Virus record (IMG/VR): IMGVR_UViG_3300035688_000196
Span: 1 to 20,258 of that record
Strand: one strand, 5' to 3'
DNA: 20,258 bases
From: a virus
Within the stretch, counting starts at the first letter, position 1. Each line of letters opens with the position of its first letter. Shown here in pieces: positions 1,056-16,254 of the stretch. The notes below the pieces were generated by a model. It saw only the letters and a program-made list of their open reading frames with translations. It had not been told where the DNA came from and ran no database searches. The position numbers were made by a program, and so were the translations under genes.

Positions 1056-1892
1056 CTACATCTCCTCTATGATCACGGTGCCCTGCTCGAAGCCGCGTCC
1101 CAGTTCTAGCCTCTCGATGGCCTTGACAAGCGCATCCCGCGTCGGCCCGATCTGCTCGACACTATTCAGGGTTTGTAGCCGTAGCAGGGCAGCGGCCAGA
1201 GTCAGGAGCGGCCCTGTGTTGATGTCGAGTGTCGAGTCGTCGGTCGTCGGCTCCGTCTCAAATGCCTGCCCCACGATCCGCAACTTCTTGCCCGACTCAA
1301 TCCAGCCGTGGTGGTCAGCGATGGCCTTGTCCAGCCGTATCTTCCGCGTGGCACTCCGCACCGGATACCACCACGGACAGTCGCTATCGCCAGGTCCAGG
1401 GACGTGCAGGGTAAAGAGCCCCGCTAGGGAAGTGTCCTCGCGCCAGATCGAGCGGATAGCAGCGAAGCCAGTTGGCACGGTGAGTTCGTAACTGGCGGCC
1501 AGTGTGGGGTCGCCTAGAGTTAGGCTCTCGTCCACTTTCGGCAACAGTGTGCGGCGTCGCAGGAACCGAAGGGCGATCTTGAAGGCTCTCTCGATGGTGA
1601 CATTCTTGTAGGTCGAGTAGATGTAGTATTTGCTGGTGTTGTCAGGAGTGGCGGCAAAGGCGGCCGTCACGGAGGCCCCACTCGAAGACGAGGCGGTTAT
1701 CAGTTTCTCATCGCCCTGGTCTACGCCGTCATGGACATAGACGCGGAAGTTCTTGAAGGTATCGTCTGCATCAACCAGGACGCCCGCATCAACAAGAGTT
1801 GTGCCCGTGCCGCCGCTGGCCGTCCCCTCGCGTTCGAGGGCACCCACCATCGCCAGGAGGTCGCCCTTCAGGTCGCCGAATCGTGTGCTCAT
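1056..1892 (-). CDS. Head-tail adaptor-like structural protein
   Basis: A 278-aa protein starting at ATG 1892, whose ATG overlaps the TGA of the upstream dehydrogenase gene (ATGA); GGAGA lies five bases upstream. Residues ~25-95 are beta-rich with a phrase (TFKNFRVYVHDG...KLITAS...KYYIYSTY) that resembles the inserted beta domain of phage head-tail adaptors. It is followed by a helical part (NVTIERAFKIALRFLRRR) of the type that packs against portal rings. The C-terminal ~60 residues are helical again (LLTLAAALLRLQTL...TRDALVKAIERLEL). Length and domain order suit an adaptor of the SU10/P22-gp4-like group. It stands between the glycan cassette and the tail gene, where adaptors or head-completion proteins normally occur. 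A tail-tube or stopper protein is the alternative. The family assignment is by pattern only. Confidence 0.6.
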   Translation of the reverse strand: MSTRFGDLKGDLLAMVGALEREGTASGGTGTTLVDAGVLVDADDTFKNFRVYVHDGVDQGDEKLITASSSSGASVTAAFAATPDNTSKYYIYSTYKNVTIERAFKIALRFLRRRTLLPKVDESLTLGDPTLAASYELTVPTGFAAIRSIWREDTSLAGLFTLHVPGPGDSDCPWWYPVRSATRKIRLDKAIADHHGWIESGKKLRIVGQAFETEPTTDDSTLDINTGPLLTLAAALLRLQTLNSVEQIGPTRDALVKAIERLELGRGFEQGTVIIEEM

Positions 1893-3121
1893 CTCGTTCT
1901 CCCTATCCGCCGTACCCGCACCCCCGGTTGGTCTGAGACATAGCCCCAGGGATCGATCACGACCGAACCTGGCGGGTAGGGGAAGAATTGAAACTCAGGG
2001 TGATTCGTCCCCACTACAAAGACGCATGGCCCCACTAGTTCTGGTCCGATAGCGCCGTCAACATACGGGTCATACATCGCGGGCCAGCCGAGGAAATTGG
2101 CAAGCAGGAAAGCCGGACTGCCGACCATGATGTTAGTCTCGGCCTTGAACGCCTTGCCCAAGATGACGATGGGCAGTTTGGCCTTCTTCGCCTCCTCCTT
2201 AACGATGTCTGCCAGCCATCGCGTCTGCCTCTCCCTGGCCTCCATGAGCGAGCCGAACAGGTCATGTGACAGGCTGAGTTTCCGCGCTAGCCATGAGAGT
2301 GCGATATTGTCGCGGGGATGGCAGCCGCCTCCGTCCCCCATGCCTCCCCGCAGATACTTGGGGGAAACCACACGGTCGGTGGCGTGACCCAGGGCGTCAG
2401 TCACCATGTCCACGTCAGCGCCAATGCCCTCGCAGACTTCCATGAGGGTGTTGGCGAAGACAATCTTGGACGTGACGAAGGTGTTGTAGGCAACCTTCGT
2501 GAGTTCGGCCTCCTCGATGCCCATGACGATAACCGGCTCGTGGTGAATCGTGTGGTAGAACTTGCGGAGCAGGAGGTCCAGGGCCACCGACTCCGTGCCG
2601 ATCAGGTTGAACTCTGGCCGGCGGAAGTTCCGAACGGTCTCGCCCATCGCTATGAAGGACGGGTTGTAGGCCAGCTCGATGTACTTGTTCAGCAGGGGCA
2701 TGACCTCACGCCGTATCGTGCCTGGTAGGACGGTGGAGATGATGACCAGCACCGTGTCCTTGCGCTGCCGTTCGGCGGCATCGGCGACATGGCTTACCGC
2801 TTCCTTCAGGAAGGAGTAGTCGAAGTCGGCCCGCGTCTCAGGTAAGGGCGTGGTGCCCTCATACTGCGGCTCGTGCGGCGTCTGCACGGCCACGAAGATG
2901 ATGTCGGCGAACTCCACCGCCTCAGAGATCGTGCCGAGCCAAAGTTTGCTTTCCTTCAGGAGTTCTTGCACCCCTGGCTCGTGATTGGGGTAGTAGCGGG
3001 CCAGGATGTTCTTGCGAACCTCCGTGGAGATTTCGCAACCCATGACCTCATGCCCCTTGCTCTCTATCGTCAGGAGCACAGGCAGGCCGAGTTTGCCGAG
3101 GCCGATCATGGCGATCTTCAT
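1889..3121 (-). CDS. Nucleotide-sugar dehydrogenase, UDP-glucose/GDP-mannose dehydrogenase superfamily
   Basis: A 410-aa protein, normal length for this superfamily, which oxidises the C6 hydroxyl of a nucleotide sugar to a carboxylate in two NAD-dependent steps in the cytoplasm. Visible motifs: Rossmann GLGKLG at 7-12; STVLPGT at 129-135; the mid-domain helix EEAELTKVAYNTF with Lys209 and Asn213; the nucleophile region GGGCHPRD with Cys267 and Asp271. The C-terminal domain ends with GSVVIDPW. Two departures stand out: the usual PEF glutamate is Ser (YNPSF, 152-156), and the position between Cys and Asp that is normally Lys is Arg. ATG 3121 is preferred because AGGA lies five bases upstream and the Rossmann fold begins at once. 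ATG 3148, which overlaps the TGA of the radical SAM gene, would add nine residues. Its place beside glycosyltransferases implies it supplies an acidic sugar donor; the substrate is unknown. Confidence 0.88.
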   Translation of the reverse strand: MKIAMIGLGKLGLPVLLTIESKGHEVMGCEISTEVRKNILARYYPNHEPGVQELLKESKLWLGTISEAVEFADIIFVAVQTPHEPQYEGTTPLPETRADFDYSFLKEAVSHVADAAERQRKDTVLVIISTVLPGTIRREVMPLLNKYIELAYNPSFIAMGETVRNFRRPEFNLIGTESVALDLLLRKFYHTIHHEPVIVMGIEEAELTKVAYNTFVTSKIVFANTLMEVCEGIGADVDMVTDALGHATDRVVSPKYLRGGMGDGGGCHPRDNIALSWLARKLSLSHDLFGSLMEARERQTRWLADIVKEEAKKAKLPIVILGKAFKAETNIMVGSPAFLLANFLGWPAMYDPYVDGAIGPELVGPCVFVVGTNHPEFQFFPYPPGSVVIDPWGYVSDQPGVRVRRIGRTR

Positions 3122-3144
3122 GACTGTCCTAACATACGGCGGCC

Positions 3145-4317
3145 TCATACCAGCGCCGCCTCCACGCGGCGATCCGGCGACCCCGTCAACTGTTCACAGG
3201 CTTCTTGCAACACCCGACGGGCCTCTCGCAGTTCCTCTCTCGTCATGGAATCGAAGGCGGCCTGGAAGCCTTCATCCTCTTCCAGCCCCACCTGCCAGTA
3301 GGTCTCTAGGTTGCTCTTGTCGATGGTGCAACCGAAGGCGGCAGGGTTGTTCCAGACAGCGCAACCTGGGTAGGGAACAAAGTTGTTGACCAGGGCGCGG
3401 TGGGGACGGGTCCGACGCACGAAGTCAAGGGTCTGGTTGACGCTCTCCCAGGTCTCGCCGGGGAACCCCACGATGAGGTAGATGCGGGAGTACAGGCCCA
3501 CCTCGTTTGCCCAGGCAATCGCCCGCTCGTTATTCTCCACCGTGTTGGCCTTCCCCATGAGGTCAAGCATCCGCTGGCTGCCGCTCTCGACGCCGAAGCC
3601 CACCTCGACACAGCCGCAGTCCTTCATCATGCGAAACTCGTCCAGGCTGACGTGATCGGTTCGAGTGTGCATCCGCCACTTCATCCCCAGGTCGGAGAGA
3701 CCCCGACAGAGCTTGACGAAGCGCGGCTTTTTCAGGTTGGCAACATCGTCTTTGATACTCAGTTGCCGGATGCCGAAATCGTTGCAGAGATACTTAGCCT
3801 CAGCCAGTACGTCCTCCACTTCGCGGAACTGTACCTGGCGGTGCCACATGACCTCGCTCGCACAGAAGTTGCAGGCGTAGGGACAGCCGCGAGAGGTAAT
3901 GATGCTGCATCCAGGCTCCGTCTCCTCGCCCTCCACAGCGCAGGCGCTCAGTTGCCCCAGTTCGGGCCAGAGGTCGTAGGCGGGCCAGAGGTCGCCCGTG
4001 GGAAATGGCCCCTCGTAGGCCACGTCAAACGGGCCACGTTCTCGTGTCGCCGTCGGGTGAGGCCCGCCTACGACCTTCAACCTTGCCCGTATACGTCTTG
4101 CAACCTCACACGCCGTCGGCCAGGTGGGGGTGTTGGCCGTCACCATGAGGAGGTCGCACTCGTCAACGGGCGGCTCAGACGAGTAGTTCATGTCCCACAG
4201 GAGAACTTCAGCCCCTGCCTGCCGACAGGCCGCGCCGATGTAGAGGATGCCCAGCATGGGAAACATCCGTGGCTCCCAGAATCGGGGCGTGCTAGGGCTA
4301 ACCAACAGGACTCTCAA
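3145..4317 (-). CDS. B12-binding-type radical SAM enzyme
   Basis: A 390-aa protein with the radical SAM cluster motif CPYACNFC (Cys145, Cys149, Cys152), which holds a [4Fe-4S] cluster that cleaves S-adenosylmethionine. It is preceded by an N-terminal segment like a B12-binding domain (MRVLLVSPSTPRFW, GGPHP at 84-88) and followed by GVESGS at 242-247, a SAM-contact strand typical of the class. The N-terminal region is compact, and I see no clear cobalamin-ligating DxHxxG, so cobalamin binding may be lost. The start is TTG at 4317 with GAGG seven bases upstream, overlapping the previous glycosyltransferase gene by 20 bases. Related enzymes methylate unreactive carbons, cyclise or rearrange sugars, lipids and peptides. 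With glycosyltransferases and a sugar dehydrogenase around it, action on a sugar or a glycosylated product is the best inference. The reaction itself cannot be read. Confidence 0.85.
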   Translation of the reverse strand: MRVLLVSPSTPRFWEPRMFPMLGILYIGAACRQAGAEVLLWDMNYSSEPPVDECDLLMVTANTPTWPTACEVARRIRARLKVVGGPHPTATRERGPFDVAYEGPFPTGDLWPAYDLWPELGQLSACAVEGEETEPGCSIITSRGCPYACNFCASEVMWHRQVQFREVEDVLAEAKYLCNDFGIRQLSIKDDVANLKKPRFVKLCRGLSDLGMKWRMHTRTDHVSLDEFRMMKDCGCVEVGFGVESGSQRMLDLMGKANTVENNERAIAWANEVGLYSRIYLIVGFPGETWESVNQTLDFVRRTRPHRALVNNFVPYPGCAVWNNPAAFGCTIDKSNLETYWQVGLEEDEGFQAAFDSMTREELREARRVLQEACEQLTGSPDRRVEAALV

Positions 4318-5053
4318 TGACCTGCCTCAGCTTCTCGGCGTCCTGAATCCGCTTCAGGGCCGTCGCATCCCAGGTTCTACCGTCTGAGCCGTCATCCTGC
4401 CGTTCGACGGCTTCCGCGTAGGTCGTATCTACGACCGTCCGCCCTGTCAGGAAATGCACATGCTCAATGAAGACATCCTCTAGCCAGACCTTACGCTGAA
4501 TGCGGTCGGCCAACTCCTGCGTCCACTGGTCGCTCCAGTAAACCTTGAAGTAGGGCGCGGCAAAGTAGCCGAGGGTATCGACCCATCGGCGACTCAGGAA
4601 CGGGTGTGTCGCCTGCGGCCAGCCCACCTTGAAGGGCCGGTCTTCCGCGTAGACCATGACGATGCCATCAGGGTATTTCTCGAACTCGGCCCGCACTCGG
4701 TCATCCCATCCCTGAGTACGGAACACGATGTCGTCGGCACCCTGCATTACGATGTCGCCCTTGCTCCACTCGTAGGCATCGTTCCAGTTCTGGGGTTCAT
4801 TCTGGCGCGGCCCCACCCGAACCTTGTGGTTACAGGGAAGCCGCACGGTGAACAGGCTCAGGTCGTCCTCGTCCACGTAGAAGATGAACTCCACGAGTTC
4901 AGGATGGCCTGCCAGCGCCAGTGCGCTCTTCACCATCGCCAACACCCGCTGCGGTCGGTGCCGCGTCGGGCAGAGGATCGAGATCAGACCCGCAGAGGCG
5001 ACGGTATCGAACGCTCGGCGACCGTTTCGCCTTCCCTGGTCATTTTCAGCCAT
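4298..5053 (-). CDS. GT-A fold glycosyltransferase
   Basis: A 251-aa protein with the opening strand of GT2-like glycosyltransferases (LISILCPTRHRP, 23-34) and a helix (RVLAMVKSALAL). Acidic clusters YVDEDD (59-64) and GADD (105-108) are candidates for metal and nucleotide-sugar binding. It is likely to transfer a sugar from a nucleotide donor in the cytoplasm. No membrane segment is seen. The only in-frame ATG before the fold is at 5053, so its first ~23 codons overlap the end of the fusion gene by 70 bases in another frame; the ribosome binding site there is weak. Its 3' end overlaps the radical SAM gene by 20 bases. The residues before the fold (MAENDQGRRNGRRAFDT) are unlike the rest, so a non-canonical later start is possible. 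Acceptor unknown. Confidence 0.78.
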   Translation of the reverse strand: MAENDQGRRNGRRAFDTVASAGLISILCPTRHRPQRVLAMVKSALALAGHPELVEFIFYVDEDDLSLFTVRLPCNHKVRVGPRQNEPQNWNDAYEWSKGDIVMQGADDIVFRTQGWDDRVRAEFEKYPDGIVMVYAEDRPFKVGWPQATHPFLSRRWVDTLGYFAAPYFKVYWSDQWTQELADRIQRKVWLEDVFIEHVHFLTGRTVVDTTYAEAVERQDDGSDGRTWDATALKRIQDAEKLRQVIESPVG

Positions 5054-8022
5054 TGGTCACACACCTTGCTCCACGTGTGTTCTCTCGCATACTCGGCGGC
5101 GATTTGCCGCTGGACGAGAATGAGTTTGTTCTTAGGGTTGTCCCAGAACTTCAACGCTTTGAGGAACTTGGTGACATCCCGTGAATCAATCGCCCTACTC
5201 TCGCCGTAGTCATACCATGTGCCCCAGTCGAGCATCGGCAATCGCTCAGGCAGCGCCCCCACTGGCCGCGTGATCGGGATACACCCGTTTGCCTGGGCTT
5301 CAAGGGCCGTGATGCAGTAGGTCTCATACCAGTCGCCACCATCGGGGCAGATGCTCGGATAGAGCCAGAATTGGGACTTGGCGAACTCCTTGTAGAGTTC
5401 GGGTTGTCCGATGCGCCCATGCCAGAACAGGCCGTCCTGGTCCAGAAGCGCCTCTACCTTCATCTTGAAGGTTCGCAGGTGGGGCAGCCGCTCCGACATG
5501 GAAACGAGGTTCTGCCAGCCGTAGAAGATGTGGAGTTCGGCATCCGACCACATGGCCCGTATCGCCGGCCACCATTCTAGGAGGACATCTAGGCCACGGT
5601 CAGGGCTCGAAGCGTAGATGAATCTGTGGCGCTGGGGTTCAGCCAGTGCGCCGGCGGGCGACACGATGCCATCCGCCGTGATCGTCGGCCCAGACCCGTT
5701 CCGATAAACCCGTTCCCACTCTCTCTTGTGCCACTCACTCAGGACCAGAATCTTGTCGGCGTTGTCCAGGTGCTCCTGCTTGCCGTACTGAATGTCATGG
5801 CACCAGAGCCAGACGTGCTCGGCGTTGTACTTGTGGTCGAGCATCCCCGGCTGGCGGCTGATAACCAGCAACCAGAACTGCTGCGTGGGGTCGAAGTGCT
5901 TGTAGTTCCGGTAGAGAACGCCGTCATAGATGCCATCCGCCTCGGCGTAGACGACTACGCGGTGTCCACGCTTGGCGAACTCCTGGGCCATGCGGATAAC
6001 CGCCGTCTCACTCCCGCCCAGCCCAGCAGTATCGGGCGAACTGGGTTCCCAAAACTCTGGACCCGGACCGACAAAGAACACTACTGGCTGGTCATTGACC
6101 CCCTCATGGTCGTACTCCACGACCCAGATGCGCTGTCGCGTGTCGCCCGCTTCCTTCCAGGGTTGGGTGAGGGTATGGAGTTCAACTGGGTGGCGGTACT
6201 CGTCAAAGGTCAGTTCTGTCAATTGGTCGTAGGAGAACTCTAGGATGTGCTCGCGGGGTGCCTCTGGCGTAGGTACGGTCGGCCCGATCTCGCCCAACCC
6301 AGGCCAGTCGCCCACCAAAGGAGAGGGCGTGGTGATCAATACTCGCTTGCCCAAGTCGTCAGCCCGCCGCAGGTAGTGGCCGACGAGGTGGGGCGGCAGG
6401 TGCTCGATAAGTTCGGCCATGATGACGGCATCAAACGGCTCGAAGTTCTCATCCTTCCGGCAGCGGGTGTGAAACTCCTCTAGGTCGCAGGCCAGGAAGA
6501 TGCAGTCCAGACCCTCCTCTTCGGCCTTCTTCTGAGCCCGCTCGACGTTCCGAGAGTGAATGTCGATGCCCGTGACCTCGTATCCCCTACGGGCCATCTC
6601 CAACGCAGGGCCACCATTGGCGCACCCCACGTCCAGCACACTCTTGACGCCCGCCTTCTCGAAACGCTCGAAGACCCACTCCCAGCGGAAGGGGTCAAGG
6701 ACTGTTCCTACGACCTCGTGCCATACGTTCGTATCGTCGTAGAACGCCCTGTAGAGTTCTGGGTTGTAGGCGTGTTGGGTGATCTTCTGCAACAGCGCCC
6801 GCTTCTCCGTAATCTCTGACTGGTCTCGGATGTTGGCTGGCAGGTAGCCTTCCAGGAGCCAGCGGGCGCGGAGCGTGTCACCCCGCCGTGTGAGGTGGTC
6901 GGCGAGTTGCTTCGCTGCCGCTATGCTGCCCTGGGCCTGGATCGCCTCGGAGTAGAGGCGGACGAACTTGCTCCAATCGTCCGTAGGTTCGAGTTCGTAT
7001 GCCTGCCCCGCGATCTTCAGGGCCTTCTCGTAGTCGCCCTTCTGCGCGTAGACCCTGTGCATCACATCCCAGAGGTTCAGGGTATACTCGCGGGGCGTCC
7101 GGCATACGACCAGCGGTGCCTCCTCTTTGCCGATGCTGGACTGCGCCCAGGCGATGGCTTCATCCCCGTTCTGCTCCCCCCACCAGCAGACGTGCGCCAT
7201 GAGGCAGTAGGGATCGCGGTAGCGTCCGTCAGCGTCGAGTGCCGCCAGAGTCCAGCCCCGCGCCTTACGGAAGTCCTGGGTGATAAGGCAGATACGCGCT
7301 ATCTGGCACGCCGCCCACCACTGCTCGATCTTGCTCTCAGGGTTGTAGTAGTACAGAGTGTAGTGTTCCATCGCGTCGGCGTAGCGTTCAATCCCGAACT
7401 CAGCATGGGCTAGGGCCAGGACGTGGCGCATCTTCCCCGGTTCATCCTTGATGGCCTTCTTGATGATGGGGATGTTTCGACCGGCTTTCTCCAGGTCTAC
7501 CGGCGCGTTGGAGTAGTTGGCGTGAATGACCTTAATGCCTTCCTCTATGTGGAGTTTGACACCTGGCTTGTCGCAGGCGCAGCACTCGTGAATGCGGTTC
7601 ACCCAGTACCAGCCATCCGCCGTCTTCATAATGCGTTCGCGGACCTGAATCTGGGTCGGGGTGCCGCGTTCGTCCATCTGGTAGACGTAGGGGAACCAGA
7701 CGCAACTTATCCCGTTCTCCTCCATCCATCGCACCACGTCAGGAAGAACATGGGGCTGCGTCACCGCGATGTCGTCGCCGTCCAGCCAGAACCAATAGGG
7801 CTGAGTGACGAGGGAGAGGGCGAAGTTACGTGCCGCCGCGAAGTCGTCAATCCACTCGAAGGGATAGACCTTCTCGGTGAACTCGCGGGCCACGGCCTCA
7901 GTGTCATCTGAAGACTCGCCGCCCAGGACGATGATGATCTCGTCCATATAGGGAGAGACTGCACTCAGACACTGCCGTAGCGTCGTAGCGCAGTCTTTCA
8001 CGACCATGCAAAGTGAGAGCAT
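4984..8022 (-). CDS. Four-part fusion: GT2 - helical repeats - SAM methyltransferase - GT4
   Basis: A 1012-aa polypeptide. Residues 1-175 are a GT2 glycosyltransferase (MLSLCMVVKD opening, LDGDD metal site at 80-84). Residues ~195-395 are TPR-like helical repeats (ADAMEHYTLYYYNP, YEKALKIAGQAYELEP). Residues ~415-640 are a class I SAM methyltransferase with DVGCANG at 464-470, GIDI at 485-488 and ELIEHLPP at 538-545. Residues ~645-990 are a GT4-like transferase with GLGGSETA at 667-674, SSPDRGLDVLLEWW near 805-818 and the E-x7-E pair Glu900/Glu908. ATG 8022 is chosen because AGGAGG lies four bases upstream and the GT2 fold begins immediately; an in-frame ATG at 8073 would add 17 residues that overlap the previous gene. 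The enzyme probably extends and methylates a glycan, with the repeats as scaffold or acceptor-binding surface. It is larger than most phage glycosyltransferases. Substrates are unknown. Confidence 0.88.
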   Translation of the reverse strand: MLSLCMVVKDCATTLRQCLSAVSPYMDEIIIVLGGESSDDTEAVAREFTEKVYPFEWIDDFAAARNFALSLVTQPYWFWLDGDDIAVTQPHVLPDVVRWMEENGISCVWFPYVYQMDERGTPTQIQVRERIMKTADGWYWVNRIHECCACDKPGVKLHIEEGIKVIHANYSNAPVDLEKAGRNIPIIKKAIKDEPGKMRHVLALAHAEFGIERYADAMEHYTLYYYNPESKIEQWWAACQIARICLITQDFRKARGWTLAALDADGRYRDPYCLMAHVCWWGEQNGDEAIAWAQSSIGKEEAPLVVCRTPREYTLNLWDVMHRVYAQKGDYEKALKIAGQAYELEPTDDWSKFVRLYSEAIQAQGSIAAAKQLADHLTRRGDTLRARWLLEGYLPANIRDQSEITEKRALLQKITQHAYNPELYRAFYDDTNVWHEVVGTVLDPFRWEWVFERFEKAGVKSVLDVGCANGGPALEMARRGYEVTGIDIHSRNVERAQKKAEEEGLDCIFLACDLEEFHTRCRKDENFEPFDAVIMAELIEHLPPHLVGHYLRRADDLGKRVLITTPSPLVGDWPGLGEIGPTVPTPEAPREHILEFSYDQLTELTFDEYRHPVELHTLTQPWKEAGDTRQRIWVVEYDHEGVNDQPVVFFVGPGPEFWEPSSPDTAGLGGSETAVIRMAQEFAKRGHRVVVYAEADGIYDGVLYRNYKHFDPTQQFWLLVISRQPGMLDHKYNAEHVWLWCHDIQYGKQEHLDNADKILVLSEWHKREWERVYRNGSGPTITADGIVSPAGALAEPQRHRFIYASSPDRGLDVLLEWWPAIRAMWSDAELHIFYGWQNLVSMSERLPHLRTFKMKVEALLDQDGLFWHGRIGQPELYKEFAKSQFWLYPSICPDGGDWYETYCITALEAQANGCIPITRPVGALPERLPMLDWGTWYDYGESRAIDSRDVTKFLKALKFWDNPKNKLILVQRQIAAEYAREHTWSKVCDQWLKMTREGETVAERSIPSPLRV

Positions 8023-8030
8023 GAAGCCTC

Positions 8031-8672
8031 CTACGTCCGCCGAGCGTGGCCGCCCGTGATGCGGTTCAACCACTCGAAGACATCATCGCCGGTCTCGGCC
8101 CTCTTTCTCTCCATCCTGTTCTCCACGTAGTAGTGGTAGACCGACGGTGGCAACTTGCACATCTTGTTCGCCGCGACTGACCACTCCACGTTGTTGATGT
8201 AGAAGACGAGGTTTTCCTCCCCCATAAACTCCTTCCACTCCTCGCCTTCCTCGAAGAAGTCCTCGTGCCGCCAGGGGACGGTGCCTATAACGCGCCCCCG
8301 TTCGTCAAGGATGGGGTCGCCTGGCCTCGTGCCGACGCGGGCCAGTGATGCCTTGTCGATGATGGCCTGGTAACTCGGTGTCGCCATGAGGTCGGCGACC
8401 GCACTCGCCGGTAGGCGGGCCATCGCCTTCGCCAGCGTATTGGCGGCTTCCTGGGCGTCCTTAGTAGACACGGCCCGCTGAATCTCCAGGAAGACCGCGC
8501 CGATGTCCGCCGGCAGAGTAGAGGCTAAAGCCTCGGCCACTTCGGGCTGTTGAGCCTGCTCTTTAAGTGTGGTTGCCTCCTCTTTCTGTCTCCGCCGCTC
8601 CTCTTGGTATCGCTTGAACCCTGGGGGTATCTCGCCCTTCTTGTACGGTCCCCTCTCGCCTTTGTGTGCCAT
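8031..8672 (-). CDS. Unknown protein between capsid gene and glycan cassette
   Basis: A 213-aa protein starting at ATG 8672 with a strong purine-rich site (AGGAAGG, six bases upstream). The first ~35 residues are very basic (GPYKKGEIPPGFKRY, EERRRQKEE) and could bind nucleic acid or line a capsid. Residues ~45-115 look helical and Ala-rich, followed by an acidic linker (EDFFEEGEEWKEF). The C-terminus is mixed and ends with ITGGHARRT. There are no membrane segments or known catalytic motifs. It follows the major capsid gene after a long hairpin and lies eight bases from the start of the glycosyltransferase fusion. It could be a minor head protein, or the acceptor or partner of the glycan enzymes. 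I do not recognise the family. Confidence 0.7.
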   Translation of the reverse strand: MAHKGERGPYKKGEIPPGFKRYQEERRRQKEEATTLKEQAQQPEVAEALASTLPADIGAVFLEIQRAVSTKDAQEAANTLAKAMARLPASAVADLMATPSYQAIIDKASLARVGTRPGDPILDERGRVIGTVPWRHEDFFEEGEEWKEFMGEENLVFYINNVEWSVAANKMCKLPPSVYHYYVENRMERKRAETGDDVFEWLNRITGGHARRT

Positions 8673-8685
8673 GACCTTCCTTCCT

Positions 8686-8742
8686 AACCTGTGTCAGCGG
8701 GGAGGGCCGAGCGGTCTCGGCCCCCCACTGCCGACACAGGTT
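8686..8742 (-). terminator. Long GC-rich hairpin after the major capsid gene
   Basis: An imperfect inverted repeat begins at the capsid stop codon. The outer arms AACCTGTGTC and GACACAGGTT pair perfectly over ten bases. The inner arms pair over most of a further 16-17 positions with one bulge and one mismatch, closing on a four-base ACCG loop. No T-run follows on either strand, so it is not a textbook intrinsic terminator. It ends just before the ribosome binding site of the 213-aa gene. It may act as a partial terminator, a 3' stabilising structure for the abundant capsid message, or a processing site. Confidence 0.7.
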
Positions 8743-9725
8743 TACGTGGTCGGGTGAACCACAATCGCCGTGTCGTTCTTGGTCGAGGCCGTCTCAAGGC
8801 GCTGACCAAAGTTCTGGTTCAGGATGGCGGCAGCGTAACTCGTCTTCCAGCCGACCGTGCCGTACTGGTTGAGCGGGTCGTCTGCGCCAGCCGAACCCAC
8901 CGGCTTCACGATGATGTCATCCCCCAGCTCGGCCAGGGTGACTTCACCGTAGTACCCATCGCCCACAAGCTGGGTGACGTAGACGGCGATGTTCACCGAG
9001 AGACCGCCAGAGGGTCGCACCCTCGCGTTGCTGGCCTCGATGATGCGGGCACCACCGAAGTCGAATGAACCGCCCGTAAAGAGCGGGTTGTCCCCGCCGC
9101 GAGGCAGGGCGTACTGAAGGGCCGCACCGATGTTGGTGTCCAGGAGCATGTCCACGTACACATCAGGGTGTGTAATGCAGGGGAAGCGCCCCTCTGCCTT
9201 CGGGTGCCCTGGAGCCCCTCTCTTCTTCAGCGAAGCGACACCGCCCAGCAGGGTCGCGGCGTTCATCACGGAACCCGTGCTGATAGCGGTCGGCGCAGTG
9301 CCGGTGCGGTAGCTGACGTTCGTGCCAGCCACTATGATGTCGCGGGCCAGGAAGTCGATAACACGGGCTCGTTGACCAGCGAACATGTCGCTCATCTCAG
9401 CCACCACGTTGTCAATCGACTGGCTCTGGGCCACGTCGCTGATGAAGTCGAAGGCACCGTACTGCCGTGCCGTGACCGCCACAGAACTCCAGGTGACGTT
9501 CGTGCCCGCCGGAGGCGTACCCTCGGTGGCGATCCACGAGACGTTGCCCGGAACCTGCTCCAACCGGCGCATATTGGCTACGATGCCCATGTTGCGGGGG
9601 ATAGATCGCTGCACGCCCCAGCCCGCGTGCTTCAGATACGGCTGCGCACGGGCGAGAAGCTGCATCACATAGAAGATGCGGGCTTCCTCCGTGAAGCCAC
9701 CAGTTGCGTAAAGTTCGGTTGCCAC
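8742..9725 (-). CDS. Major capsid protein, N4-gp56 type
   Basis: A 327-aa protein that matches the N4-gp56 major capsid pattern. It has an early helix (FTEEARIFYVMQLLARAQPYL), a conserved IPRNMG stretch, the arm-to-core phrase ATEGTPPAG, QYGAFDFISDVAQ, and a long helix ending in ARDIIVAGTNVSY. The C-terminal half carries SLKKRGAPG, CITHPDVYVDM and GGARIIEASNARV. Such proteins assemble the icosahedral shell with an HK97-type fold. The start is GTG at 9725, four bases after the stop of the scaffold gene; GGAGG lies ten bases upstream, a little far. The scaffold-then-capsid order is the usual one. Capsid role is secure; the N4-gp56 label rests on motif reading. Confidence 0.9.
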   Translation of the reverse strand: MATELYATGGFTEEARIFYVMQLLARAQPYLKHAGWGVQRSIPRNMGIVANMRRLEQVPGNVSWIATEGTPPAGTNVTWSSVAVTARQYGAFDFISDVAQSQSIDNVVAEMSDMFAGQRARVIDFLARDIIVAGTNVSYRTGTAPTAISTGSVMNAATLLGGVASLKKRGAPGHPKAEGRFPCITHPDVYVDMLLDTNIGAALQYALPRGGDNPLFTGGSFDFGGARIIEASNARVRPSGGLSVNIAVYVTQLVGDGYYGEVTLAELGDDIIVKPVGSAGADDPLNQYGTVGWKTSYAAAILNQNFGQRLETASTKNDTAIVVHPTT

Positions 9726-10578: not shown

Positions 10579-11982
10579 TCAAGCTAACCCGGCATAGACC
10601 GGTTTCTCCTTCTTGGGCTTCTTCTCTTCTGGGAGGGGCTCCGTCTTCGGAGCCACCGGCCCCAGTGTGCCGATGTAGGCTTGGGCATACTGCTGACCCA
10701 ACTCGGCCTTTGCCTGCTTCTGTTGGGCCTGCTGCTCAAGGCCCGCCCCATACTGGATACGGAAGAACTCCTCGCCGAGAGGCGTGAGGGGCATGCCACG
10801 CGGCACACCAAGCATCGGCACCCCGCGAGAGCCGCCCATGCGCGGCCCGAAAATTGGCCCGCCGATAGCGCCCGCACCAGCCTGGGGTACTTGGGCCTCC
10901 TTGGCACCACGCGCGAGTTCGTACTGCAATTCCTTCGATGTCGGCCCCCACCGGGCGTGCTGCTCAGCCTCGGACATAACCGTGGGGATGTCGCCACGGC
11001 GGGCGACGCGGGTGATCAGCTCGTCGGCGGTCGGCAGTCGCTCGCCTGGCAGGGGTTCGGGCATCTTCGCCTTGAACTCGCCCGCGCCAGGTGTGTAGGT
11101 TATTGTCTCCCTACCAGGACCAGGAACGGTGACGGTGCCGGGGGCTTCGAGAGCTGCGGTAGCGAGTTCCTGAGTGCGACGCTTGACGTATGCCTCCTGT
11201 TCCTTCTGTCTCTCTTCCTCTAGGGCAGCGGCGACCCCTGGCTGACTCAGGAGGGTAGGGCGAAGGTTGGTAGTCCGCTGTCCCCACACATCCTCAAACT
11301 CAGCCTCAGCCTGGGTCGCGGCAGCCTTGGTCTTTACCTCCCCTACCTTTTCCGGTAGGGACTGGCCGGCGAGGGTCGCATTCCGAATGTCAGCGTCAGT
11401 GAGGCCCTGAGACCGCGCCCAGATGTAGTCGCTCACGGGCACATCTAGGAGCTTGGCGGTTCCCATCTCGCTGATCGAGATGCCACGCACGAGTCCAGGT
11501 GCCGCTTCTTCCTGGGTGATGCCCAGGGTTTGCATCTGGCGGAGGTCCGAGAGTGAGAGGCGGTACGCGAGGGCGAATTGAAACTCGTCGCCGGTGATGC
11601 CCTTAGCCTCTAGCGCGGCGTTCAGTTCAAGGAAGTCTTGCTGGGTGATCTCTTCAGCGGTCGGTGCCACAGCCTGAACCCCGCCGACGCCGCCACCAGC
11701 CGCAGTAGCAGGGGCAACCGTAGGCTCGACAAATGGCCCTTGCTCGAAGCGGGCGCGAAGAGTCTCCGGCGAGAGAGGGCCAGGTTCGATCTCCCACTCT
11801 GCGGCCTGAAACTCGTCGAAGGTCATGTCCCGCCATCGGGTCTGACCCATCGCGGTCTCCTGAATCTCCCAGTGGCCCGGTTTGGTCTTCGTGGGCTCGA
11901 CCCAGCGGGTGGCACCAGTCGCCGGTTTCTCACCGAACTCACTGCCCCAATCAATACCGTCAGTCATGGTTGCACCCCACAT
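10579..11982 (-). CDS. Unknown, probably structural or ejected protein
   Basis: A 467-aa protein between the 1327-aa internal-type protein and the scaffold. The N-terminal ~80 residues are W-rich (TRWVEPTKTKPGHWEIQE, TRWRDMTFDEF). The middle (~110-215) is helical with small-domain phrases (FALAYRLSLSDLRQMQTLGI, ISISEMGTAKLLDV). Residues ~215-280 look like a long charged helix rich in E, Q and A. The C-terminal part is Gly/Pro-rich (GAIGGPIFGPRMGG) and ends in a Lys/Pro/Glu tail (PLPEEKKPKKEKP). A PLPGE motif also occurs twice near the start of the neighbouring 1327-aa protein. No enzyme motif is seen. ATG 11982 gives the longest frame; ATG 11967 (MTDGIDWG) is equally possible, as neither has a strong ribosome binding site. 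The terminator at 10546 closes the unit. Confidence 0.72.
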   Translation of the reverse strand: MWGATMTDGIDWGSEFGEKPATGATRWVEPTKTKPGHWEIQETAMGQTRWRDMTFDEFQAAEWEIEPGPLSPETLRARFEQGPFVEPTVAPATAAGGGVGGVQAVAPTAEEITQQDFLELNAALEAKGITGDEFQFALAYRLSLSDLRQMQTLGITQEEAAPGLVRGISISEMGTAKLLDVPVSDYIWARSQGLTDADIRNATLAGQSLPEKVGEVKTKAAATQAEAEFEDVWGQRTTNLRPTLLSQPGVAAALEEERQKEQEAYVKRRTQELATAALEAPGTVTVPGPGRETITYTPGAGEFKAKMPEPLPGERLPTADELITRVARRGDIPTVMSEAEQHARWGPTSKELQYELARGAKEAQVPQAGAGAIGGPIFGPRMGGSRGVPMLGVPRGMPLTPLGEEFFRIQYGAGLEQQAQQKQAKAELGQQYAQAYIGTLGPVAPKTEPLPEEKKPKKEKPVYAGLA

Positions 11983-11983
11983 C

Positions 11984-12013
11984 TTGACAAAGCGCCAAAG
12001 GGAGGATTAGAGT
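11984..12013 (+). promoter_or_regulatory. Candidate sigma-70 promoter for the plus-strand membrane gene
   Basis: A perfect -35 TTGACA (11984-11989) is followed 18 bases later by TAGAGT (12008-12013), which matches four of six -10 positions. The predicted start near 12020 would leave a short leader ahead of the ribosome binding site at 12026. It is the only such plus-strand signal I found paired with a good gene start. Confidence 0.55.
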
Positions 12014-12025
12014 ATTTTCCCCGCC

Positions 12026-12031
12026 AGGAGG
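12026..12031 (+). promoter_or_regulatory. Strong Shine-Dalgarno site
   Basis: AGGAGG lies five bases before ATG 12037. It fixes the start of the small membrane protein there and excludes the much longer in-frame extension back to 11638, which is antisense to the 467-aa gene. Confidence 0.8.
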
Positions 12032-12036
12032 ATGCG

Positions 12037-12267
12037 ATGCTATTCATGGTGGCCATCACCATCTTCATCTGGATGGGTCTACCCCTCACCTTGGCCTTCC
12101 TGGTTGAGAGGGAAATGTTCCCAGTTCTCGACCGCAAGTTCCTCGGTTGCCCCGTATACGGCTGGCTCATGGTGTTCGCCATCATCGGCTGGCTCGTCTG
12201 GGTTGGCCTCGGTGCCACATCTGACACCTGCTCCCTTGAGGCGGGGGGCCTAGAGTGCGGCGAGTAG
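12037..12267 (+). CDS. Small two-helix membrane protein, moron-like
   Basis: A 76-aa protein and the only convincing plus-strand gene. Two hydrophobic segments (residues ~2-23 and ~41-60) are joined by a short charged loop (EREMFPVLDRKF), and an acidic, Cys-containing tail (DTCSLEAGGLECGE) follows. Third codon positions are mostly G or C as in the neighbours, and AGGAGG precedes the ATG at ideal spacing with a promoter-like sequence before that. It is convergent with the 1327-aa gene (three bases between stops) and divergent from the 467-aa gene. Such isolated units inside phage late operons often act on the host membrane, for example in superinfection exclusion; a holin is the other option, although the acidic tail is not typical of one. 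No terminator is seen after it. Function unknown. Confidence 0.75.
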   Translation: MLFMVAITIFIWMGLPLTLAFLVEREMFPVLDRKFLGCPVYGWLMVFAIIGWLVWVGLGATSDTCSLEAGGLECGE

Positions 12268-12270
12268 ACA

Positions 12271-15200
12271 TTACTCTCTCAGCCTCGGCGGCTCCGTGCC
12301 GATGTTCTCCTTCCACCACTTCTGTGCGGCCTCGGTGAGTACGGTCTCATAGCCACGTATCCCCCAGTACACCAGCAAGGCGTCCACGTCTGGGTTCCCC
12401 CGCCGGTATCGGTCTAGGTATGAGTCTGGATTATTGCTGCTACTTCGATCCATGTAGACCTTCAGAGCTGGGTGATTCTGTCCCAGTTTGGCCATCGCCT
12501 GATCAACAGTCTGGTCATTAGGTTTGTTGGCCGTCGCCTGCACAGCAAGGTCGCCATAGTCGCGGAACTGTTGGAGCCACGGGTCTTTAGCCTGAGCCTG
12601 CACCCAGAGGCGGTCGGGTAGGTCAAAGAATCCAGTATCCGGTTTGTCCGATGGCTTATCGCCAGGCAAGGTGAAGATGATACGCGACTCGTTGATAGTC
12701 TTCAGCGCCGCCGAGTATTTCTTCTCCCTCGGCGTCTGATTCAAACCGAGGTTGTCACTGAGGGCCTGGCCTTGTGCAGGTGTAAGCATTGACTGGAAGC
12801 GGTCAAGATCATCATAGAGAACAGTCTTGTCATCGACCTTACTCGTAGCGGGATTGGTGTGATCAGTGTAGATGGCAAGATAGCGGGCGACAATATCGTC
12901 CGGGGTCCAGTTCTCCGGTATCGTGAATGGGTCGCCGAGTTTCTCATGTTCCTTCTGCAGCCGGTCGAATTGCTCAGGATTGGCGAAGTAGAAACCGGCG
13001 ATGGCCGCAGAGCGCGCGTCTTGCCGACCCGTTCGGTCGTCCCGCCATGCCTTGTTATCCACGATGCTGGCGTCCGATGCCAGTTGCTCCTGGGTGAACG
13101 GAATGAGCATACTCTTCAGGCTCTTGTTGGCCGTCCCATACCATGCCTTTCTGTCCTCCACGGCCTGGTCAGCCGCGAGGACAGCAGGATCGTCAGCCAC
13201 AGCCGCGTTAGCAGCGCGGGTGCCCCGTTCCCTCCGCAAGTCCTCTATGCTCATACCAAACCGATCCTGGGAGGTCCGGTCGCGGGCATCTTCCAACTTC
13301 TGCCACTCCGTCTCATAGGTGAGTACACCCGCGCCGAAGAATGACAGGACACCAAGGAATCCCATCTTAGGCCCGCCGTTTCGGATGGCCTCAACGAAAT
13401 CCTGAAACCAGAATGGCGCGACCCGATTCCATGCCTGCGTCTTCAGGTTCCGAAGGCTCGGCGTCACCTCCTCGCCCACGTAGGTCTCGCCCCTCATGTA
13501 GTCGATCAGGGTGCCGAGACCAGGCGCGAGTTTCGCCTGAAGGGCACGGAGAGCCGTCATGCCCAGATTCATGGGGTACGTCTCTCCCGTCACGGTACTC
13601 TTACCCTCACGCATGATCATCTGAGCCGCTGTGCGGAATACCGGCTGTAGGCCCCCCATCGTGTCGAAGCGTGTGTTGCCGATCCGAATCCGGCCCCAGT
13701 CTGTCGAACGCGGGTCTAGTTCCACATCCACGCCTGGAATCCCAGAGTATTTCATCAAGGCCAAGAGGCCCGCATTAAGAGCCGTGAAGGAACCCAGGTC
13801 ATACATGACCTGCTTCCTAATAGTCGGGTTCCGCAGGATGTAGTAGAGGCCAACGGGGTAGGCTTCAAGGCGTGAGAACCAGAAGCGGGGAGCGAACAAT
13901 ACGGTCCCAAGTTCTGGCACTATCTTCTCTAGCGGGCCAGGGAGGCGCGCCCACCCAGTCGAGATGTTGACCCAGTTGGCAAGAGCCCTCACTTCCCGAA
14001 CCGTGTACTGATGCCCACCCTCTGCGGCGATCCTCTTCCAAGCGAGAAGCGTATTCTTCGCGTAGTTGCCCCGCATCTCATTGCCGGCCGTGGTGTAGGC
14101 CCATTGCGACTCCCGTATACCGGGCAACTTGCTAGCCCACTTGGAGACGTACATCTCCTGGCTCGGCACCGTCACCCCCATCCGCTCCGCGATCCCTGTA
14201 CCTGGGTTGGCTATCGCCAAGCCGTTCGGCACCAACTCGTCGCGGATAATGGGGTCGTTCATCAGGCGCTCGAAGGAGGCGCTCGCGTAGTCCTTGTCGA
14301 TAGCGCGGACCATCGGCCCGATGGCTTGGTAAAACTCCTTGCGGGCGATAAGGATTGCGCCCTGACGCAATGGAAACGACAAGTCAAATGAGGCGGCGAT
14401 GGCACGCGGCAAGTTCGCGGCGTCGATGACTTCGCGCCAGAGGTTAAACCCTGCCTGGTTCGTGACGTTCTTAATGACAGGTGCCAGGTCGGGCCATATC
14501 TTGAGTAGATATTCGGCTTGGTGGGGGGCTAATGCCTGCCTCTCCAGAAGCAACTGCTCGACTGCCTTTTCGGCGTTCCGTGCGTCAAGGGAACGGAGGG
14601 CAGGATTGGTGAAGGCCCGAACCATGTAGTCCTTAGCTTCCTGATCGGTGAATGTCTCAGAGAACTTGAAGGTCCGCGCCGTGATACCTTCACTGGCCTT
14701 ATAAGCCTTCGCCGCCATCTCCTGAACATTCTCGGCTGTAGCCTGGGCGCGGTAACTGGCGGTAGCAGCAGCAGCAGCCCGACGTTTCGCCGCGATCTCC
14801 GACACGACTTCGCCTCTGTATTCAGTCTGCGAAGCCTCCATCGCACGGTACAGTTTGCCGATGCCAGCAGTCTCTGCCTTCGCAGCGGCCTCAGCACCCC
14901 CAAGTTCACCTTTGGTAGCCTTGAGCGCTTGTCTCAGAGCCTTGGCATCGGCGGCTGTAGGAACTGAGAGTTGACTGTCTTTCAACCAGACAGTTGCTCG
15001 TGCCCCAGTCTCTCGGTTGTAGAAGTGGACAAGGGTTTCGTTCCTGTCGGGGTTGTGGGCCACCACCGTCCCAAGATTGTTCCTGTCTGCCGCCCTGACA
15101 CGGGCATTAGGTTGAAGATGCGATGGGATGCCCATCCCTTCCCCTGCGGCTGCGGCCTTCGGGCCGCGAGCAAGAGCCTCGACCCTGGGCACCTCAACAC

Positions 15201-16254
15201 CGAATCCACGCGGGACAACGCCAGTCTCGACGGCGGTCTGCCACTTAGTACGGATGACCTCTAGTGCCCGTGCCGCCTCTCGCTGGGTCAAACCCTTAGC
15301 GACCGCAGCGACATCCGACACTGAGACCTGGCTTGGACTAGCCTTCGCTATGGCCGCCAACACGATCACGTCAGCTAGAATGTCGGCCACCATATCAGGG
15401 ACGCCTATCCGCTTCAGGTTCGCGGCCATCGGGGCGGCTGGCGCGGTGAGTGCCCGCATGACCGGCTTGCCAGGTACAATACCTAGACTCTCGGCAGCCT
15501 GTTCGGCAAGGAAGCCAGCTCCGAGTACGCCGATCTCTGGAAGGGCTACGGCCAGACCCGCCGTTTGGAGAATCGTAGCGAGCGTAGTCTCGCGTGCCGC
15601 CTGTTGCTGTGCCCATTCCTGAAGGGCCTTGCCAGGGCCGAGTTCGACAGCCGCAGCCCAGGCCGCCTGTTCAATGGCCTGCTTGTACTGTTTGGGCAGT
15701 TGCTCAAACGTGAGTGCGCCCTTTGGCGCTGGCCCCATCATGGCGTGTTCTGGCGGCGCTGGCCCCATCGTGAGAGGAATGGGGATGCCCGCCGCTCGAA
15801 GCGCTTCAGTTTCGGGAACGCCGAGACGTTTCAGACTCTCAACCTTGCGTTCAGCAGCGGCACGATCTAGTTCCCCCCGCACCTGTCCCGCCAGACCCAT
15901 CATCCGCTCTCCTGCCGCCTGCACCTGTTCGAGCGGCATAGTCATCGCAGCGGTAGGTCCAGCCGCAGCCTCCCCAGGCAGGGGCTCGATGGCCTGGCGC
16001 GTGATCACGTCCGGTGTAGCGCGTGCCACCTCCTCGTTGAGCGCCTGCTCCCGTGCAAGTTGGGCGTCTTCGCCAGGAAGTGGGCCAGGAGGGGGCACGG
16101 TCTCACGGGTGATCACGTCTGGCGTAACGATGGGGGGTGCGAACGGTTGCGTACCGATGATCGCCTGCTCCTCCAGCGTGGGGTAGCCCTGCCGTTGCGC
16201 CTCTTTGCGCTTGCGGGCCTCGGCCTCCGCGTAGATAACGTCGGGAGTGGTCAT
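12271..16254 (-). CDS. Large internal/ejection-type virion protein with LPD38-like region
   Basis: A 1327-aa protein whose ATG overlaps the portal stop (ATGA). Residues 1-95 hold three TPDVI repeats (3-7, 44-48, 80-84) in a Pro-rich setting. Residues 225-300 contain hydrophobic, Ala-rich helices (TILQTAGLAVALPEIGVLGAG; DMVADILADVIVLAAIA). Residues ~380-430 look like a small SH3-like beta domain, followed by long Ala/Glu-rich helices (435-520). Residues ~615-980 resemble 'large polyvalent protein associated domain 38': FDLSFPLRQGAIL, LFAPRFWFSRLEAYP, ELDPRSTDWGRIRIGNTRFD and RGETYVGEEV. The C-terminus is a helical region rich in Asp/Pro motifs. LPD38-like regions often close giant polyvalent phage proteins; here the region sits in a protein of ordinary ejection-protein size after the portal. 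A role in DNA ejection or inside the head is inferred. No catalytic motif was found. Confidence 0.75.
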   Translation of the reverse strand: MTTPDVIYAEAEARKRKEAQRQGYPTLEEQAIIGTQPFAPPIVTPDVITRETVPPPGPLPGEDAQLAREQALNEEVARATPDVITRQAIEPLPGEAAAGPTAAMTMPLEQVQAAGERMMGLAGQVRGELDRAAAERKVESLKRLGVPETEALRAAGIPIPLTMGPAPPEHAMMGPAPKGALTFEQLPKQYKQAIEQAAWAAAVELGPGKALQEWAQQQAARETTLATILQTAGLAVALPEIGVLGAGFLAEQAAESLGIVPGKPVMRALTAPAAPMAANLKRIGVPDMVADILADVIVLAAIAKASPSQVSVSDVAAVAKGLTQREAARALEVIRTKWQTAVETGVVPRGFGVEVPRVEALARGPKAAAAGEGMGIPSHLQPNARVRAADRNNLGTVVAHNPDRNETLVHFYNRETGARATVWLKDSQLSVPTAADAKALRQALKATKGELGGAEAAAKAETAGIGKLYRAMEASQTEYRGEVVSEIAAKRRAAAAATASYRAQATAENVQEMAAKAYKASEGITARTFKFSETFTDQEAKDYMVRAFTNPALRSLDARNAEKAVEQLLLERQALAPHQAEYLLKIWPDLAPVIKNVTNQAGFNLWREVIDAANLPRAIAASFDLSFPLRQGAILIARKEFYQAIGPMVRAIDKDYASASFERLMNDPIIRDELVPNGLAIANPGTGIAERMGVTVPSQEMYVSKWASKLPGIRESQWAYTTAGNEMRGNYAKNTLLAWKRIAAEGGHQYTVREVRALANWVNISTGWARLPGPLEKIVPELGTVLFAPRFWFSRLEAYPVGLYYILRNPTIRKQVMYDLGSFTALNAGLLALMKYSGIPGVDVELDPRSTDWGRIRIGNTRFDTMGGLQPVFRTAAQMIMREGKSTVTGETYPMNLGMTALRALQAKLAPGLGTLIDYMRGETYVGEEVTPSLRNLKTQAWNRVAPFWFQDFVEAIRNGGPKMGFLGVLSFFGAGVLTYETEWQKLEDARDRTSQDRFGMSIEDLRRERGTRAANAAVADDPAVLAADQAVEDRKAWYGTANKSLKSMLIPFTQEQLASDASIVDNKAWRDDRTGRQDARSAAIAGFYFANPEQFDRLQKEHEKLGDPFTIPENWTPDDIVARYLAIYTDHTNPATSKVDDKTVLYDDLDRFQSMLTPAQGQALSDNLGLNQTPREKKYSAALKTINESRIIFTLPGDKPSDKPDTGFFDLPDRLWVQAQAKDPWLQQFRDYGDLAVQATANKPNDQTVDQAMAKLGQNHPALKVYMDRSSSNNPDSYLDRYRRGNPDVDALLVYWGIRGYETVLTEAAQKWWKENIGTEPPRLRE
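15725..15772 (-). repeat. Short direct repeat within the 1327-aa gene
   Basis: The plus-strand 18-mer GGCGCTGGCCCCATCRTG occurs twice, 30 bases apart (15725-15742 and 15755-15772). In the minus-strand protein it encodes the duplicated MGPAP phrase at residues ~163-176. It is a small in-frame duplication in a Pro/Ala-rich linker. Confidence 0.75.
16001..16126 (-). repeat. Repeated TPDVI-encoding segments in the 1327-aa gene
   Basis: Near-identical GTGATCACGTCYGGYGTA stretches lie at 16001-16018 and 16109-16126 and encode TPDVIT twice. A third, diverged copy at the very start of the gene (near 16235-16250) encodes TPDVIY. The spacing is about 36-41 codons. The peptide repeats lie in the disordered-looking N-terminus. 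Confidence 0.7.

Follow-up and report, generated by a model that had tools for sequence, protein, structure and literature searches.

Why would a phage keep four genes of sugar-enzyme families inside the operon that encodes its particle? This question is raised by a stretch of 20,258 nt, hereafter the window, which comprises positions 1-20,258 of the IMG/VR virus record IMGVR_UViG_3300035688_000196. A preliminary description had reported four contiguous minus-strand genes, with overlaps of 70 and 20 bases, that encode a fusion of two glycosyltransferases (GT) and a methyltransferase (MT), a second GT, a B12-type radical SAM enzyme and a nucleotide-sugar dehydrogenase (UGDH). All four ORFs are present, profile matches support the domains given for each, and both overlaps are exact.

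Organization of the locus

The cassette spans 1889-8022. It is flanked on one side by an N4-gp56 capsid gene and a 213-aa gene, and on the other side by a putative adaptor gene. The features are as follows; the sister is a 31-kb contig described below.

8742..9725, minus strand: major capsid protein (MCP), N4-gp56 family (context; TIGR04387; PHROG 1357, 1.6e-31; 95% identical in the sister)
8686..8742, minus strand: very stable RNA hairpin, between the stop codon of the capsid gene and the 213-aa gene
8031..8672, minus strand: 213-aa conserved gene 3' of the capsid gene (context; 92% identical in the sister)
4984..8022, minus strand: GT2-TPR-methyltransferase-GT4 fusion, 1012 aa (PF00535, TPR, PF13649, PF00534)
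4298..5053, minus strand: small GT-A-type glycosyltransferase, 251 aa (PHROG 14945, 1.4e-33)
3145..4317, minus strand: B12-domain radical SAM enzyme, TTG start (PF04055, 9.7e-24)
1889..3148, minus strand: nucleotide-sugar (UDP-glucose-type) 6-dehydrogenase (PF03721, PF00984, TIGR03026)
1056..1892, minus strand: 278-aa gene, putative adaptor/connector (context; labelled by position alone; 67% identical in the sister)
2-1054: 351-aa ORF, no database match

Starting at the 213-aa gene, the joins are, in order, +8, -70, -20, -4, -4 and +1 bases, and the four cassette genes overlap one another by 70, 20 and 4 bases. The capsid gene is a genuine member of the N4-gp56 family, with a TIGR04387 score of 129.8 bits against a cut-off of 60 bits. 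The placement of the cassette between head genes and an adaptor/tail gene, as first proposed, is thus confirmed on the capsid side; the genes past the cassette are putative adaptor/tail genes by their position, and the 278-aa gene, like the 351-aa ORF, gave no match in database searches. The 213-aa gene matched no family, nor did it match the gene that follows the MCP in gut phage L013. The hairpin has a minimum free energy of -48.7 kcal/mol (z -7.65) and is without a T-run; its equivalent in the sister reaches -56.6 kcal/mol (z -10.6). It is possibly an attenuator, or an mRNA-processing or stabilising element, that separates the expression of the capsid from that of the cassette.

Enzymes of the cassette

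The fusion, for which the ATG at 8022 is the preferred start with the Shine-Dalgarno sequence GTAGGAGG upstream, can be divided into four parts. These are a GT2 domain (PF00535, 1e-13), a TPR region (TPR_19, 0.00015), a methyltransferase domain (PF13649, 1.7e-14) and a GT4 domain, whose PF00534 match (7.6e-6) is slightly below the cut-off and in which the EX7E motif is present. The GT2 half matches GmaR (2.4e-20) and SunS-type enzymes, and the fusion has the architecture of GmaR/SunS-like proteins, with a GT2 of the protein-acceptor type followed by TPRs and with no membrane segment. Assignment to SunS itself was rejected, the TIGR04195 match of 50 bits being far under the equivalog cut-off of 350 bits. 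No membrane segment was found in any other cassette protein either. Searches of Pfam and the PDB with the 251-aa GT-A protein gave no match.

The radical SAM enzyme has an intact CxxxCxxC motif. Its B12-binding domain matches PF02310 with 3.3e-7 and 30.6 bits, under the cut-off of 32.1, and no NCBIfam equivalog cut-off was reached. The nearest solved chain is AprD4 (4.2e-19). When the enzyme is aligned with its relatives in two siphoviruses, L003 (IMGVR 2703719286_000002) and L004 (IMGVR 3300032173_000009), the C-terminal part of the B12 domain is absent; past the GGPHPT motif the domain is shorter by about 70 aa in the window and by about 50 aa in the sister. The chemistry of the enzyme is uncertain because of this shortening in both contigs. 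AlphaFold models of the radical SAM enzyme (mean pLDDT 53.5, 4 sequences) and of the fusion (mean pLDDT 32.7, 2 sequences) were too weak for a fold search; in the former, the low-confidence N-terminal domain has four strands only.

The dehydrogenase comprises the N-terminal domain (UDPG_MGDP_dh_N, 2.7e-22) and the central domain of its family. It passes the cut-off of NCBIfam TIGR03026, which is a subfamily model only, and meets no equivalog cut-off. Its catalytic cysteine motif (GGxCxPxD) reads GDGGGCHPRD, aligns with that of GDP-mannose dehydrogenase and is conserved in L007.

Conservation and recurrence

The sister contig has all four genes in identical order and place, with 84-91% identity, and the complete set was found in these two contigs only. 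The dN/dS values between them, 0.07-0.19, are comparable to those of the portal and MCP genes: 0.10 for the fusion (88.5% identical), 0.19 for the GT-A (84% identical), 0.115 for the dehydrogenase and 0.073 for the radical SAM gene, which is among the most constrained of the cassette. The cassette ORFs are therefore real coding genes under purifying selection. What had been read as an oxidising, methylating, radical-SAM glycan cassette is, by its domains and dN/dS, a real and constrained set of genes beside head genes. Two places downstream, the two phages have tail genes of unrelated sequence. Since gene order and constraint are kept in the sister while this nearby tail gene is not, the cassette moves with the head module.

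Recurrence beside capsid genes of this type had been proposed as a check, and it was found in the one sister contig: none of the 45 other relatives with this capsid type has a GT2, GT4 or UGDH-family gene (PF00535, PF00534, PF03721). That the cassette belongs inherently to phages with an N4-gp56 capsid is thus not supported. That these 45 phages do without it is an observation that counts against a role in decorating virions.

Parts of the cassette recur beside other capsids. L003 and L004, whose capsid is unrelated, have a radical SAM enzyme of the window's family with 51% identity. Here the order is GT/radical-SAM/methyltransferase/GT/GT, a GT4 included, and the genes lie exactly between the MCP and the major tail gene. 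L112, a relative of these two, has no radical SAM gene; a DegT/DnrJ sugar aminotransferase (1.6e-74) and an MT fill that part of the slot, which fits a sugar-modifying role. In a third lineage of two genomes, ctKR88 (Manatee Spring podovirus MW202524) and L191, a GT2-TPR-GT4 fusion is found one gene past yet another type of capsid gene. Within the searches made, the radical SAM family was seen in phage contigs only, and scans of bacterial genomes gave no homologue; these scans were pattern-based and detect close relatives only, so that absence elsewhere is weak evidence. Pattern matches in bacteria and in L099, L101 and L103 were rejected as chance.

Comparison with known systems

The preliminary description had not recognised any described system of this combination and position. 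The general kind, GT and MT genes in a structural operon, is already known: Corndog-type mycobacteriophages have an O-methyltransferase and three glycosyltransferase genes between the portal and protease genes, and their enzymes are made in infected cells and absent from virions, for which decoration was proposed (PMC4351075). Glycosylation of mycobacteriophage virions has been shown according to the passages of PMC12619734 and PMC13313380 that cite Freeman 2023. The window shares with Corndog and Cluster O phages an MT and several GTs that are contiguous inside the structural operon. However, the Corndog enzymes are separate proteins at the portal-protease site, with no sugar dehydrogenase or radical SAM enzyme reported, whereas the window, from an N4-gp56 phage, has in its head-tail gap a UGDH, a B12-radical SAM enzyme and a single GT2-TPR-MT-GT4 chain. 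The UGDH and radical SAM equipment and the four-domain fusion appear to be new.

The other likenesses are partial. L003 and L004 share the radical SAM enzyme, MT and GT4 genes and a site between MCP and major tail protein, but their MT and GT genes are separate, their B12 domain is of full length and they have no UGDH. In ctKR88 and L191, the fusion (33% identical) is followed by further GTs before the tail genes, but it lacks the MT domain, and there is no radical SAM gene or adjoining UGDH. GmaR and SunS resemble the fusion in their GT2 domain, and FlmG, for which TPR-guided cytosolic O-glycosylation of protein is established (PMC7591256), resembles it in its modular TPR-GT design. The acceptors of these three are flagellin or a bacteriocin peptide, whereas the fusion has a putative virion protein as acceptor and carries additional MT and GT4 domains. 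AprD4, GenD1 and GenK are radical SAM enzymes of the B12-domain type that act on sugars (PMC5461906); they belong to antibiotic biosynthesis, and the similarity is limited to the radical SAM core. Pelagimyophages carry glycosyltransferase, UDP-glucose 6-dehydrogenase and radical SAM genes, read as modifying the host O-antigen (PMC7029224), but these lie with tail-fibre genes in a hypervariable region or are scattered. The occurrence of these gene types near tail fibres, so read, is a further observation against virion decoration.

Discussion

From sequence, the cassette is probably a cytosolic set for virion glycosylation with which the phage decorates its own particles. We favour this reading because the cassette proteins have no membrane segment and because the GmaR and SunS relatives of the fusion glycosylate proteins. 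The dehydrogenase would make a UDP-uronic acid, probably UDP-glucuronate. The TPR region of the fusion would bind a virion protein, to which the GT2-TPR half would add the first sugar, and the GT4 half and the small GT-A would lengthen the chain. The methyltransferase domain may add a capping O-methyl (or N-methyl) group to a sugar, and the radical SAM enzyme may change a sugar carbon by C-methylation, deoxygenation or epimerisation. With transcription as part of the structural operon, the enzymes would be made as capsid or tail subunits accumulate, and the particle would be coated before release. We infer this late timing, as we do the glycan chemistry. A Ser/Thr-rich C-terminus of the capsid protein as acceptor signal was not supported, 9 of 77 relatives being equally high. 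This result, the uncertain radical SAM chemistry and the restriction of the complete set to two contigs also weigh against virion decoration.

The cassette could instead modify the host envelope (capsule, O-antigen or teichoic glycan), either excluding other phages or avoiding adsorption to debris at lysis, and the head-tail gap would then be no more than a place in the late operon where accessory genes are tolerated. Late-operon insertion slots do commonly hold unrelated accessory genes. The published reading of the pelagimyophage genes points the same way (PMC7029224), as do the relatives of the window GT-A and UGDH in pelagiphage HTVC008M. We nevertheless regard this as unlikely, given a cassette without membrane protein, flippase or lipid-carrier transferase, a GT2-TPR half of the protein-glycosylating type, a predicted late-operon expression that would come too late for exclusion, and movement with head rather than tail genes.

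It is also conceivable, but decidedly improbable, that the cassette is mixed or decayed, with GT, MT and UGDH glycosylating virions and the radical SAM protein catalytically altered or serving another purpose. The shortened B12 segment, of which the sister retains more, and the four-stranded model would agree with this; the strong constraint on the gene and its intact cysteine motif do not, and AprD4 shows that sugar modification is possible without methylase activity. A cassette that modifies viral DNA or some other small molecule (e.g. sugar-hypermodified bases), and that lies beside head genes by chance, is very improbable: DNA can be a substrate of phage glycosyltransferases (reviewed in PMC12619734) and base-modifying genes could lie outside the 20 kb seen, but neither the window nor the annotated ORFs of the sister hold a base hydroxymethylase or other DNA-modifying gene, a UGDH and a protein-type GT2 with TPRs are unexpected for DNA sugars, and the head-tail placement recurs in unrelated phages.

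This recurrence of related cassettes in unrelated phages suggests, beyond the virion decoration proposed here, that the head-tail gap repeatedly serves as a slot for glycan modules that can replace one another. Only tentatively, we propose that such a slot exists in several unrelated phages and that in two of these lineages it holds a dedicated radical SAM enzyme, whose product, a C-modified sugar (e.g. branched-methyl or deoxy), would be exposed on the virion; a step of radical chemistry has not yet been described in the decoration of viral particles. If so, membrane-less phages would encode a pathway of their own for unusual sugars, with the products of which they coat their particles, and this coating would affect recognition, stability and adsorption. 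A slot with swapping enzymes would be a place to seek further such pathways, and it supplies enzymes for laboratory testing, the radical SAM family included.

Results

The window spans an entire IMG/VR record of 20,258 bases that is classed as linear, so it is probably a fragment. Its main genes all lie on the minus strand, where TerL is followed by a putative portal, proteins of 1327 and 467 aa, a scaffold-like protein and the N4-gp56 family capsid (TIGR04387, above cut-off). Next come a 213-aa gene, the cassette of four genes, a 278-aa gene and an open frame of 351 aa. The preliminary description had placed a four-gene glycan cassette at 1889-8022, and the genes lie at exactly these positions:

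4984-8022, minus strand: fusion of GT2, TPR, methyltransferase and GT4 domains in a single 1012-aa chain; start ATG at 8022, preceded by GTAGGAGG
4298-5053, minus strand: GT-A transferase
3145-4317, minus strand: radical SAM enzyme
1889-3148, minus strand: dehydrogenase (UGDH), with nucleotide-binding and catalytic-cysteine motifs both kept

From the 213-aa gene on, the joins are +8, -70, -20, -4 and -4 bases, in agreement with the 70- and 20-base overlaps first described, and Pfam, PHROG and NCBIfam matches bear out the domain assignments.

The same cassette genes, in the same order and place, are found in a sister contig of 31 kb (IMGVR 3300035688_000047; coordinates prefixed L002). Over aligned codons, amino-acid identities between window and sister are 88.5% for the fusion, 84% for the GT-A transferase, 91% for the radical SAM enzyme and 88.5% for the dehydrogenase, with dN/dS values of 0.10, 0.19, 0.07 and 0.12, respectively. 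For comparison, TerL, MCP and portal gave 0.05, 0.07 and 0.09. The cassette is under selection. Downstream of it the two phages diverge: identity falls to 68% in the 278-aa gene, and the tail-side gene that follows is not related between them (351-aa frame, 2-1054, in the window; 744-aa gene, L002:13342-15576, in the sister). The cassette thus travels together with the head module. An unrelated tail-side gene in two otherwise close phages suggests tail-module exchange.

Other features of the two contigs are as follows. The 1327-aa protein (12271-16254, between portal and scaffold) is about 34% identical to the sister over part of its length, unlike its neighbours, which are 85-95% identical. 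A very stable hairpin at 8686-8742 (minus strand; -48.7 kcal/mol, z -7.65) begins at the stop codon of the capsid gene and lacks a T-run, and the sister has one at L002:5636-5700 (-56.6 kcal/mol, z -10.6); it could hold capsid expression above that of the downstream genes. Immediately behind a tail-fibre-like gene, the sister also has a second glycan gene of 409 aa (L002:18057-19286; GT2 plus methyltransferase) and a gene for a 423-aa protein (L002:19283-20554); the window stops short of the matching point.

A profile scan with the window capsid protein gave 79 loci. Beside N4-gp56 capsids, the whole set recurs in the sister, but PF00535, PF00534 and PF03721 had no match anywhere in the records of 45 other relatives (44 from the scan plus Bacillus phage Pony). 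With many records fragmentary and the search confined to these three Pfam families rather than weak GT families, this count sets a minimum for glycan genes. On these sequences, the cassette was acquired as a module and is not a trait of the clade.

Relatives of the radical SAM enzyme with 51% identity occur in two siphovirus contigs, L003 and L004, whose capsid (PHROG 1005) is unrelated to that of the window. In both, MCP is followed by a ~155-aa gene, a GT-B-like protein, the radical SAM enzyme, a methyltransferase, a second GT-B-like protein and a GT4; a 187-aa gene then precedes the major tail protein (PHROG 9522) and the tape measure. The two GT-B-like calls were made from sequence motifs, with no Pfam match. 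In the same capsid clade, the capsid-to-major-tail gap of L112 holds a GT-B relative (38%), a methyltransferase, a DegT/DnrJ sugar aminotransferase and a GT4 (L112:9032-13226), without a radical SAM gene. In L114 the GT4 of the head-tail gap is split into two adjacent frames (11867-13089), possibly by a frameshift or an error of sequencing, and is accompanied by a further GT and a methyltransferase; L127 has a weak GT there. MCP and the major tail gene are 6.6-8.4 kb apart in L110-L112, 3.0-3.3 kb in L154-L156, L187 and L188, and 5-10 kb in several other records of the clade. In a third lineage, podovirus ctKR88 (MW202524) and L191, a GT2-TPR-GT4 fusion lacks the methyltransferase domain; in ctKR88 it lies one gene past the capsid gene, with more GTs and, beyond these, tail genes behind it. 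A 78-kb phage contig carries the same three enzyme types as the window within 6 kb (L007:7669-13047; GT-A relative, 49% identical dehydrogenase, 611-aa B12-radical SAM), not adjoining recognised head genes.

The best solved match of the radical SAM enzyme is AprD4 (4.2e-19), an enzyme that deoxygenates an aminoglycoside, and methylation of sugar carbons is known from GenD1 and GenK (PMC5461906). Aligned with L003/L004, about 70 residues are absent after GGPHPT in the window and about 50 at the same place in the sister, an in-frame loss, larger in the window, where the B12 fold should end. Cobalamin dependence is putative; the gene is nonetheless strongly constrained.

Discussion

Glycan genes among phage structural genes are already known. 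In Corndog and its relatives, the stretch between the portal and protease genes encodes an O-methyltransferase, two glycosyltransferases and a putative N-acetylglucosaminyltransferase; these enzymes were detected in infected cells but were absent from the virion proteins, and capsid modification was proposed (PMC4351075). Later work, as cited in PMC12619734, reports that the capsid and tail-tube proteins of mycobacteriophages bear glycans at their C-termini. A Microbacterium phage has two GTs and a UDP-glucose dehydrogenase (PMC7302621). What would be new is a radical SAM gene within a glycan cassette that adjoins head genes; no description of one was found in the literature searched, with incomplete coverage.

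The preliminary description read the cassette as making an oxidised, methylated, perhaps radical-modified glycan for virion decoration or envelope change; the observation is confirmed and this interpretation partly supported. The main rival to virion decoration is that the enzymes modify the host envelope; the GT, UDP-glucose dehydrogenase and radical SAM genes of pelagimyophages were interpreted as O-antigen modification (PMC7029224). The GT2 half of the window fusion, however, resembles GmaR (2.4e-20) and SunS/ThuS-type enzymes, which glycosylate proteins or peptides; in FlmG, a cytosolic glycosyltransferase, a TPR domain can choose which protein is the acceptor (PMC7591256); and the cassette has no flippase or lipid-carrier enzyme, nor any protein with a hydrophobic segment of membrane-spanning length. 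The simplest reading is therefore that sugar is attached to a virion protein while still in the cytosol. We infer that the fusion would carry out this attachment, that the dehydrogenase would supply a uronic acid and that the radical SAM enzyme may modify a sugar carbon, the last because its slot is shared with a sugar aminotransferase in a relative and because of the AprD4 match and the GenD1/GenK precedent. On balance, we lean towards virion decoration as the best explanation of the cassette.
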